DNA of 39,865 nucleotides from Candidatus Parcubacteria bacterium (GTDB taxonomy: Bacteria; Patescibacteriota; Minisyncoccia; Phycocordibacterales; JAKAEA01): the NCBI GenBank assembly GCA_019661945.1, contig JAIFWI010000005.1, positions 1 to 39,865 of the forward strand, in the 5' to 3' direction. The notes under the pieces are model-generated. The model was given only the letters and a program-made list of their open reading frames with translations, did no database searches and was not told the DNA's origin. The translations under genes were made by a program, and so were the position numbers. Shown here in pieces: positions 1,978-9,507 of the stretch (position 1 is the first letter of the stretch; each line of letters opens with the position of its first letter).

Positions 1978-3987
1978 ATGAAACAAATGCATCAGTCAGG
2001 TAAAGAAAAGCGCGCAGAGGAAAAGAAACACTTAACAGGTACTATTCGCACCACCGGCAAAGGCATGGGCTTTGTCGAGGTAGATGGGCACGAAGAAGAT
2101 ATCGTTGTTGAACCAGAATTTCTAAATCACGCATTTAATGGGGATACCGTAGAAATCATACTCGCTGGAGAATACCGTGACGCTAAACGCGGCCGCCTTC
2201 GCTTGGGAACAGATACAACCTTAAGTAAACCTAGACAGGCCGGACAAGTCATAAAAATAATTGAACGCGCCAAGAAACAATTTGTCGGCCTTTTGGTTAA
2301 CAAGGAGGGCAATATTTGGCTTATGCCTGACGACCGAAAAATGTATGTGCCGATCGTTGTACCAGATCCAAAACCCGAGCAAATGGGTAAAAAGGTTTTG
2401 GTAAAGATTACCCATTGGGAAAAGAGTGCGCAATATCCAACCGGCGAAGTTGTTCAGGTTCTTGGTGAAAAAGGTGACCATGAAACAGAGATTCAATCTA
2501 TTATTCTCGATCGTGGCATTGATACAAATTTCCCACCTGAAGTAGATGCAGAAGCTCATGCTCTTGAGAAAAGCGAGAAACCATTACCGGCAGAAGAAAT
2601 TGCCAAGCGAAAAGATTTTCGTAATACTTTAACATTTACTATCGACCCTGCTGATGCTAAAGATTTCGATGATGCACTATCACTCAAAGAGATTGGAAAT
2701 GGGCTGTATGAAATTGGCGTGCACATTGCCGACGTTTCTTATTATGTCAGACCTGGCACAAATCTCGATCGCGAAGCAATCAAACGTGCCACGTCTATCT
2801 ATATGGTTGACCGGACTATTCCCATGCTTCCTGAAGTTCTCTCCAATGACCTCTGTAGTCTAAACCCTAATGAAGATAAATTTGCTTTCTCAGCAGTTTT
2901 TGTCATGGACATGCAAGGCATTGTCAAAGAGCGCTGGTTCGGCCGAACAGTTATAAATTCCGATAAACGCTTTAGCTATGAAGATGCTCAGGAATCTCTT
3001 AATACAAAGGGTGAACATTTTGAAAGTCTACATACTCTTAATGAAATTGCCGGTAAACTCCGTGAGGAAAAATATAAAGAAGGGGCAATTGATTTTGAAA
3101 CAGAAGAAGTAAAATTCAAACTTGATGAACACGGCAAGCCAATTGAAGTTATTAAGAAACAAAGGCTTGATACCCACAAGCTTATTGAAGAGTACATGCT
3201 TCTGGCAAATAAAGAAGTGGCTGAGTATATTTTTAACCATCAGAAACAGAAAGCTACGGGAGCATCAATTTACCGGATCCATGATGTGCCTGATGAAGAG
3301 CGTATTCAAGATTTGGCACTATTTTTACAAGCCTTAGGCCATACTCTGCCCGTCCGCCAAGGAAAAGTTTCTTCGCAGGATATTAATAAACTGCTTAAAT
3401 CTATTCAGGGAACACCTGAAGAAGGTCTGATTAAAACCGCCACCATTCGTTCAATGGCTAAAGCAATTTACTCAACGAAAAATATCGGCCACTTTGGTCT
3501 GGCTTTTAAATTCTATACTCACTTTACCTCGCCTATCCGCCGCTATCCAGATCTTGTTGTTCACAGAATCTTAGACAGTATCCTAAAGGGAGATCAGAAA
3601 GCCGCAAAAGATGAATTTCGATCACTAGAAAAAATTGCAGCTCATTCAACCGAACGAGAGATTGCTGCCGCTGAAGCTGAACGAGCCTCAATTAAATACA
3701 AGCAAGTTGAGTATATGAGTGAACGTATTGGGGAAGAGTTTGATGGTATTATTTCAGGCGTTACAGAATGGGGCTTATATATTGAAGAAATAAATACAAA
3801 ATGTGAGGGTATGGTTCCAATTCGTGAATTGGGTAATGATTACTATATTTTCAACAAAAAGACCTACTCAATTAAGGGTGAGAAAACAAAAAAAGAATTT
3901 CGCTTGGGAGACAAAGTCCGCTTTCGAGTTGTCAAAGCTGATCTTGATGCCAAAACTCTTGATTATGCACTAAGCGAGAGCAAGTAA
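1978..3987 (+). CDS. rnr: Ribonuclease R (RNB family exoribonuclease with S1 domain)
   Basis: TFTIDPADAKDFDDALSL, HFTSPIRRYPDLVVHRIL, C-terminal S1-like domain. Confidence 0.96.
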   Translation: MKQMHQSGKEKRAEEKKHLTGTIRTTGKGMGFVEVDGHEEDIVVEPEFLNHAFNGDTVEIILAGEYRDAKRGRLRLGTDTTLSKPRQAGQVIKIIERAKKQFVGLLVNKEGNIWLMPDDRKMYVPIVVPDPKPEQMGKKVLVKITHWEKSAQYPTGEVVQVLGEKGDHETEIQSIILDRGIDTNFPPEVDAEAHALEKSEKPLPAEEIAKRKDFRNTLTFTIDPADAKDFDDALSLKEIGNGLYEIGVHIADVSYYVRPGTNLDREAIKRATSIYMVDRTIPMLPEVLSNDLCSLNPNEDKFAFSAVFVMDMQGIVKERWFGRTVINSDKRFSYEDAQESLNTKGEHFESLHTLNEIAGKLREEKYKEGAIDFETEEVKFKLDEHGKPIEVIKKQRLDTHKLIEEYMLLANKEVAEYIFNHQKQKATGASIYRIHDVPDEERIQDLALFLQALGHTLPVRQGKVSSQDINKLLKSIQGTPEEGLIKTATIRSMAKAIYSTKNIGHFGLAFKFYTHFTSPIRRYPDLVVHRILDSILKGDQKAAKDEFRSLEKIAAHSTEREIAAAEAERASIKYKQVEYMSERIGEEFDGIISGVTEWGLYIEEINTKCEGMVPIRELGNDYYIFNKKTYSIKGEKTKKEFRLGDKVRFRVVKADLDAKTLDYALSESK

Positions 3988-4054
3988 TAAAAATTTTCAG
4001 GTCCTCGGATCTCCCGTCTGCGCGGGCCAGACCATGAAAATTTTTATTACTTGC
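3980..4054. repeat. Palindromic repeat copy 1: 35-bp core (4000-4034) flanked by 20-bp perfect inverted arms (3980-3999 / 4035-4054)
   Basis: gcaagtaataaaaattttca | ggtcctcggatctcccgtctgcgcgggccagacca | tgaaaatttttattacttgc; core recurs at 8307-8341. Confidence 0.95.
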
Positions 4055-4068
4055 GATAGCTTAGTAAA

Positions 4069-8233: not shown

Positions 8234-8287
8234 AACTTTTGTACTATATCGTACTTTTTAAAAATTGGCAACTGAAAGGCGCGAAGT

Positions 8288-8360
8288 AAAAAGAGCAGAA
8301 TTTTTATGGTCTGGCCCGCGTAGACGGGAGATCCGAGGACCTAAAAATTCTGCTCTTTTT
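8288..8360. repeat. Palindromic repeat copy 2: same 35-bp core (8307-8341, opposite strand) with different 19-bp perfect inverted arms (8288-8306 / 8342-8360)
   Basis: aaaaagagcagaattttta | tggtctggcccgcgtagacgggagatccgaggacc | taaaaattctgctcttttt; one substitution relative to copy 1. Confidence 0.95.
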
Positions 8361-8939
8361 GCGAAGCGAGTTTAAAAAGCTTTTGCGGTGCAGCTTTGAC
8401 GGCCCATGTTTTTTAATAAGCTGCCGATGGATTTTGGTTCCATAGCCTTTGTGAATTTCTAATTTATATTTGGGATATTTCTTGGCAATTTTCGTAATGT
8501 ATCGATCCCGCGTCACCTTAGCGGCAATTGAAGCTAAGCTTATGACAGGAATTTTCTCATCACCTTTTATAATAGTTTTTTGATTCCTAAATTGCTCCGG
8601 AGCCCGCAGCGAGCCATCGAGTACAATGCTGCAGGTGGTATAATCTGCATCCAAAACATCCAAACATTCAGCAATGCCTCTTTTTATAGCATGTGAAATA
8701 CCCTTCTTATCAATAACATCAGCGCTAATTAAAGCCACATGAAAATGGAAATTACCCTCAAGCTGCCATTCAAGCATCCGGGCAAACCACCATTCTCGAG
8801 CTTGTAGCGTAAGTTTTTTAGAATCCTTGACCCCGACAAAACGCTTTTTATTAAAATCTACTGGAATGCTGACAGCCCCGACCGCAACAGGGCCAGCTAA
8901 TGGCCCGCGTCCTGCTTCATCAATACCAATAAGGTACAT
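8304..8939 (-). CDS. rnhB: Ribonuclease HII; last 12 codons encoded by the repeat core
   Basis: MYLIGIDEAGRGPLAGPVAVGAV...LASIAAKVTRDRYI; start taken at 8939, which avoids overlap with the pilin gene. Confidence 0.94.
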   Translation of the reverse strand: MYLIGIDEAGRGPLAGPVAVGAVSIPVDFNKKRFVGVKDSKKLTLQAREWWFARMLEWQLEGNFHFHVALISADVIDKKGISHAIKRGIAECLDVLDADYTTCSIVLDGSLRAPEQFRNQKTIIKGDEKIPVISLASIAAKVTRDRYITKIAKKYPKYKLEIHKGYGTKIHRQLIKKHGPSKLHRKSFLNSLRKKSRIFRSSDLPSTRARP

Positions 8940-8943
8940 GAGA

Positions 8944-9507
8944 TTATTCAGCAATTGTCAGTTGACAGCGAGTAGCTCCAACACCATCACTTAAGGGCAG
9001 TGCACCAGCAAGAACACAATTTTGACCTGCACCTTTTAAATGCCAATAAAGATGTACAAGAGTGCAGCGCTCATTACCGGCAGCCAGACTATATGATTGG
9101 CAAAAATAGAGTGATCCATCATTTACCTCTCCGCCATATGTAATTGAGTTCTGATTAGGGCTTGGCAAAGCCTGATAATAATCATCAAGCTGACTATTGA
9201 GCACAGGATCATCAGCACCATAAAAGTTTATTTGTCCAGTCAGGCAGGTGCTTCCATTGGGCGCTCTTCCGAGACAATATCGCATACCATTAGCGAGAGG
9301 CGGATAGGTACCCATGGGTAATTTGCCTTTATCAAATTGATATGCTCGAATGGCCGTAACATATTGGCGAACAGTAGTCGTTATAACAGAATTTTGAGCC
9401 TTAACACGAGCGCTATTTAAACTAGCCACAACAATACTCGATAAAAGCCCGATTATAGAAATAACAACAAGAAGTTCAATGAGAGTAAATCCTTTGTTTT
9501 GCTTCAT
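8944..9507 (-). CDS. Type IV pilin / pseudopilin with N-methylation motif
   Basis: MKQNKGFTLIELLVVISIIGLLSSIVVASLNSARVKAQ. Confidence 0.93.
   Translation of the reverse strand: MKQNKGFTLIELLVVISIIGLLSSIVVASLNSARVKAQNSVITTTVRQYVTAIRAYQFDKGKLPMGTYPPLANGMRYCLGRAPNGSTCLTGQINFYGADDPVLNSQLDDYYQALPSPNQNSITYGGEVNDGSLYFCQSYSLAAGNERCTLVHLYWHLKGAGQNCVLAGALPLSDGVGATRCQLTIAE

Follow-up and report, generated by a model that had tools for sequence, protein, structure and literature searches.

The hairpin at the 3' end of rnhB described here is probably a copy of a mobile element that is palindromic, non-autonomous and specific to Patescibacteria. The sole inherited part of this element would be a core hairpin, about 35-60 nt long (GGTCTGG, an apex and TCCGAGGACC, plus a few flanking bases), and its insertion would proceed by inverted copying of the target. 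The window, that is, the whole stretch of DNA analysed (39,865 nt), is one of the contigs of an 861-kb, 97% complete Patescibacterial genome, in which the copies of the core were inventoried.

The palindrome at rnhB and its sister copies

As the initial annotation had described, positions 8288-8306 (AAAAAGAGCAGAATTTTTA) and 8342-8360 (TAAAAATTCTGCTCTTTTT) form an exact 19-bp inverted repeat (Table 1). A single T and then the 34-nt core GGTCTGGCCCGCGTAGACGGGAGATCCGAGGACC (8308-8341) lie between the arms, and an exact 19-bp inverse only 35 nt away is far above chance expectation. Weaker pairing extends outward from there, giving arms of 32 nt that match at 81%. RNA folding of 8270-8378 yields -39.8 kcal/mol on the rnhB strand and -47.9 kcal/mol on the other (z about -6.8 on either strand; none of 200 shuffles was equally good). 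Read on the rnhB strand, the hairpin finishes with a U-run, CTGCTCTTTTT; a scan for terminators of the simple type, with loops of 3-8 nt, found none. The U-run is a likeness to intrinsic terminators. Unlike them, however, the element lies in most catalogued cases within genes that need transcription through it; termination by the rnhB hairpin is plausible but would be a by-product of insertion.

The rnhB product matches the Pfam RNase_HII profile with an E value of 5.1e-33 (residues 9-195 of 216). The ORF does not close ahead of the hairpin: it extends across the proximal arm and the core as far as a TAA within the far arm (8306-8304; ..SLRKKSRIFRSSDLPSTRARP, then stop). In relatives, the stop comes shortly after HRxSF. 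When the flanks are rejoined without the core and the proximal arm, the product ends ..HRKSFLNSLR-TAA and is of normal length compared to relatives; when they are rejoined without the core and the other arm, a long run-on results. Because only removal of the proximal arm and core restores a relative-like end, rnhB of the window likely carries an in-frame insertion of 54 nt (18 codons) immediately before its original TAA. Likewise, arm 1 would be the native sequence, since the clean ..SFLNSLR end appears once the core and the other arm are taken away. Arm 2, proximal to rnhB, is then probably arm 1 copied in inverted form during insertion, a polarity that we infer from mnmA, cca, ychF and rnhB orthologues elsewhere. 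An 'empty' rnhB allele of this kind could also result from slippage at short direct repeats with loss of the DNA between them.

Table 1. Positions of the two palindromes of the window, their parts and rnhB
Feature	Position	Strand	Remarks
Arm, window copy 1	3971..3999	-	Overlaps 3' end and stop of RNase R-like gene
Core, window copy 1	4000..4033	-	
Other arm, window copy 1	4034..4063	-	Lies where the RNase R-like and SMC-like genes converge
Outer flank ..GCGCGAA	8275..8287	+	Half of basal internal loop / weak outer stem (fold); many copies have a GRA-type motif next to arms of about 20 bp
Arm 1, rnhB copy (left arm, core-plus orientation)	8288..8306	+	Exact inverse of 8342-8360; holds the rnhB stop codon TAA (8306-8304, minus strand)
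Core, rnhB copy: TGGTCTGG-CCCGCGTAGACGGGAGA-TCCGAGGACC	8307..8341	+	13 repeats in genome; ends conserved, apex variable; conserved across Nomurabacteria
Arm 2, rnhB copy	8342..8360	+	Exact inverse of arm 1; codes KKSRIF in rnhB
Outer flank GCGAAGC..	8361..8373	+	Other half of basal internal loop / weak outer stem (fold)
rnhB (RNase HII) ORF, ending ..KKSRIFRSSDLPSTRARP	8304..8954	-	C-terminus extended through arm 2 and core

The other palindrome of the window, copy 1 (3992-4042), lies on the strand opposite to the rnhB copy. Its core differs by one C/T (G/A) change in the apical loop, and relative to the upstream gene the core runs antisense in both copies, an orientation that had been noticed initially. 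Taking out either arm of copy 1 leaves a plausible C-terminus of the RNase R-like gene; on arm polarity, this copy is uninformative or mildly contrary. Two other repeats were seen in the window: a small palindromic repeat, GGCACCCCCTTCRAAGGGGGATTT, with two intergenic copies (32593-32616 and 33708-33731), and a 51-bp direct repeat of 84% identity (38557-38607 and 39197-39247; ..TGAGCTTGTCGAATG..).

The genome as a whole has 13 copies of the core, a count on which BLAST-type and pattern searches agree. In nine of the 13 the 34-nt core is the same but for the C/T change in one, and the others differ in the apex, with 17-43 nt between the conserved ends. Complementary arms, forming stems of about 20-30 bp, are present in every copy, and their sequence changes from site to site. 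Among the nine same-core copies, identity is 0.77 over the nine nt adjoining the core and 0.43 over the outer arm parts, compared to 0.36 for shuffles. Searched genome-wide, the arm sequences matched only their own partners, apart from weak, chance-level hits. Arms are thus not conserved among unrelated loci, and same-core copies have unrelated arms, in keeping with what the initial annotation had predicted. The copies share a fold comprising a weak outer stem, a small purine-rich internal loop, an arm stem of ~20 bp, a core with asymmetric bulges and a variable apex. One copy resides in uvrC, where it adds ..GKFSRSSDLPSARARPLKIS.. in frame (element peptide RSSDLPSARARP). About 50 nt upstream of another core copy (G000:C21, L342:14163-14205) there is a perfect hairpin with 20-bp arms, GCAAGTAATATAAATTTTTATGGTAAAAATTTATATTACTTGC, whose core has shrunk to about TGG; it is possibly a deletion derivative of the element.

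Position in genes, orientation and distribution

The initial annotation had proposed an element that builds a terminator from whatever gene end it lands in. The first half of this proposal, a palindrome made from the landing site, is supported: identical cores carry unrelated arms, the arms are without another convincing source in the genome, and at four sites (see below) the size of the insertion fits the core and one arm. The second half, a gene-end or terminator device, is not supported, as most copies catalogued in relatives are in frame within long housekeeping ORFs, and one is in the genome's own uvrC. In the Patescibacterial catalogue, where palindromes are mostly about 75-120 nt long, 53 of 80 copies are spanned in frame by an ORF; copies also lie between genes. 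The host genes, identified from characteristic sequence motifs rather than Pfam scans, are those of what we take to be UvrC (three different sites), UvrB, UvrA, Tgt, LigA, TsaD, PheT, PolA, MnmA, KsgA, YchF, the CCA-adding enzyme and RNase HII (internal site). The same loops in Nomurabacteria orthologues hold other in-frame, often palindromic inserts (SSRFTLKGSDAT.., SPLEEYPQGEVDE.., RSDLGANS..GPTYG.. and CCCGCCCGAACGACTGATGTCGTTCAGTCGGGCGGG), found at L242, L243, L253 and L256 (Tgt), L252 and L274, L267, L269 and L270 (UvrB), L273, and L336 (YchF). Several families of in-frame palindromic inserts may therefore exist.

Orientation relative to the host gene, of which an inventory had been suggested, is not random: the core is antisense in 44 of the 53 copies in ORFs and sense in nine, all three antisense frames being used. 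It is not fixed either. At the same site in ligA, the core is sense in some species (L059, L106, L110, L119) and antisense in others (L051, L055, L086, L129), and at one site in uvrA the orientations in L105 and L140 are opposite. The presence of both orientations at the same place in LigA and UvrA orthologues suggests that the loop of the element flips by inversion through its arms. The antisense bias may come from a preference for T-tracts in the target combined with A-rich coding strands.

In the window's own family, the element is present in one of five genomes; a BLAST-level search of the four other members and of 36 further genomes of the same order did not find the core. Class-wide it occurs in five of 392 genomes. 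One Nomurabacteria-type family has related cores in 33 of 148 genomes, where a reversed control pattern gave 0. In a scan of GTDB-type genomes, the matches listed included Nomurabacteria, Adlerbacteria, Kaiserbacteria and other Paceibacteria, besides armless, chance-like matches; none of the 112 stretches listed was from Rickettsia. The hits outside Patescibacteria were rejected as copies; they are essentially armless, lie within GC-rich genes and look like chance matches. A pattern scan of IMG/VR viral contigs gave 0 matches and thus no sign of a viral source. The patchiness of this distribution suggests mobility or horizontal transfer of the element. A related core family, CAGTCGCTCGG..CTCAGCCACTCCTTC, was also seen, with the same arm architecture and at the same protein positions, in MnmA (L313, G088) and YchF (L325, G497).

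Two explanations that dispense with mobility have to be weighed against these data. The first is a functional RNA or terminator module for gene-end regulation that is vertically inherited. A stable fold, a conserved core motif, the U-run at rnhB and the retention of ligA and tgt copies at orthologous sites in several species speak for such a module. It is nonetheless very improbable, given the patchy distribution noted for the window's family, nine same-core copies at unrelated loci, in-frame positions inside genes, both orientations at one site and an Rfam search in which nothing covered the element at or near the gathering score. The second is that the palindromes are inverted chimeras from assembly or amplification. 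Inverted duplications are a known artefact of amplification, but the same core recurs in dozens of independent assemblies, orthologous copies are present in several species and reading frames are preserved, which leaves this explanation scarcely credible.

Origin of the arms

The origin of the arms can be approached by comparing filled and empty sites among relatives at the species or genus level. In mnmA, the net insertion is 24 aa (72 nt; HMM alignment), compared to a palindrome of 95 nt; in cca it is 22 aa (66 nt) compared to 94 nt; in ychF about 24-25 aa (72-75 nt) compared to about 93 nt; and in rnhB of G488, 57 nt as inferred, or 60 nt by HMM, compared to 76-88 nt. At these four length-conserved sites the net insertion of 57-75 nt thus fits the core and one arm and not the whole palindrome of 76-95 nt. 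The residues encoded by one arm have conserved native counterparts in the aligned element-free orthologues: FQLRQ in MnmA, RRLAE in the CCA enzyme and EDF in YchF. One rnhB orthologue without the element (ACTTCACAAAAAGAACTTCCTGC) also resembles one arm of the filled allele. In rnhB of the window, the arm proximal to the gene, which had been taken for the native gene end, probably arose as the inverted copy. At 4/4 sites the left arm (core-plus orientation) is the native one, a consistency that is suggestive but, being expected about 1 in 8 times by chance, no proof. Since same-core copies have unrelated arms and net insertions fit the core and one arm, it is probable that each palindrome combines a native arm with an inverted copy of it that arose on insertion. 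A native-arm case in TruB was dropped, its 'empty' allele looking like a remnant of the element.

Not all sites conform. In this genome's own uvrC, the excess over same-family relatives is 75-81 nt, which is a better fit to both arms, in a loop that varies in length. Inserts in Tgt, UvrB and another UvrC site are still larger, and these length-variable loops hold other palindromes too. In orthologous copies in UvrB, both arms have changed in coordination, and because of this, conversion between the arms after insertion must also occur. One alternative is a conventional palindromic mobile element of the RPE or MITE type that inserts with both arms, the arms diverging later while inverted-repeat conversion keeps them complementary. 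The gain in uvrC and the coordinated changes in both arms, seen in orthologous tgt as well as uvrB copies, are as such an element predicts, and template switching that homogenises arms has been discussed for coding palindromes (PMC6649704). We consider insertion with both arms unlikely, although it is the strongest competitor. Nine cores are near-identical, apex included, yet their arms are near-perfect and unrelated, so that the arms would have been scrambled while the free apex stayed fixed; moreover, the net insertions in mnmA, cca, ychF and rnhB are too short, and direct target duplication is lacking.

A further alternative is that both arms are native, the core having entered the loop of an existing long hairpin such as a native terminator. 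Outer short inverted repeats above chance (see below), the location of the window copies at gene ends and the resemblance of the AAAAAGAGCAG/CTGCTCTTTTT arms to a bidirectional terminator are compatible with this. However, the element-free mnmA, cca, ychF and rnhB orthologues have no 20-30 bp hairpin at the site, and many copies are intragenic, where no terminator is expected, which together make a pre-existing hairpin very improbable.

Insertion mechanism and relation to known elements

Direct target duplication at the junctions is not above chance (6 compared to 3.1 expected), but short inverted repeats on the outside exceed expectation (17 copies compared to 4.1, with a shuffle maximum of 11). 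Among copies with arms of about 20 bp, purine motifs of the form G-R-A are found at the outer edges in 31 and 26 of 43. An A and T tract precedes the core. In the insertion by inverted target copying favored here, the core would join behind a native T-rich stretch (..TTTTTNA), and its 3' end would fold back and prime synthesis on that stretch, by snap-back or template switching. Where the flanks offer a short outer inverted repeat, synthesis would return to the target, the product being target - core - inverted target. A fold-back or template-switch reaction fits the excess of outer inverted repeats, the lack of direct duplication and the G-R-A edges.

As to enzymes, the 97% complete genome gave no PF00078 hit for a reverse transcriptase. 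It has four Y1_Tnp (IS200/RAYT-like) hits (G000; C1:16279-16641, C12:49435-49656, C21:80949-81296 and C22:15063-15281), and no core half-sites were found beside the three longer genes (C22, C12, C21). Y1 genes occur in 27 of 33 genomes; some carriers of the element are without a Y1 hit and some non-carriers have several. Tight linkage to a Y1 transposase is not supported: no core adjoins the three longer genes, and Y1 presence does not track the element.

Among known systems, the closest likeness is to the Rickettsia palindromic elements (RPEs), units of 105-146 bp with shared 12-bp terminal inverted repeats, which are also short, mobile-looking stem-loop repeats found in frame in conserved protein genes and between genes, with several frames open (reviewed in PMC2229807). 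The Patescibacterial element differs in sharing only the core, its arms being site-specific, and it belongs to a different phylum with no shared sequence shown. Since its arms are not shared between copies, the element is a new family resembling RPEs and is treated here as a variant form, not as one of them. Bacterial MITEs (Correia/NEMIS, ERIC, RUP) are likewise small, non-autonomous repeats, some with translated open frames (PMC2229807), but the present element lacks conserved terminal inverted repeats, and direct duplication of its target does not exceed chance. REP elements, associated with RAYT, are small imperfect palindromes (PMC3733652), and Y1_Tnp genes are present in this genome and most relatives; here, however, the core does not adjoin the three longer Y1 genes examined and the arms vary. 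In Nematomorpha mitochondria, palindromes lie within protein genes, and template switching has been proposed for their origin and for maintenance of the arms (PMC6649704). These coding palindromes lack a shared dispersed core, whereas here a conserved core stands between target-derived arms. The open-access literature gave no description of the family in Patescibacteria, and its novelty is provisional, resting on open-access text only.

The general picture, which we put forward more tentatively than the element itself, and with somewhat less than even confidence, is of mobile DNA of a distinct kind. A minimal hairpin core would spread although it has neither terminal repeats nor a gene of its own; at each site it would be completed by copying the target in inverted form, and essential genes would often tolerate it in frame. 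If so, it would be the Patescibacterial equivalent of the coding palindromes of Rickettsia, but with inverted rather than the usual direct duplication of the target. It would account for unusual low-complexity inserts in Patescibacterial housekeeping proteins, serve as a natural assay of template switching in bacteria and reveal which protein loops tolerate insertion. It would also mean that active selfish DNA persists even in small, streamlined genomes.
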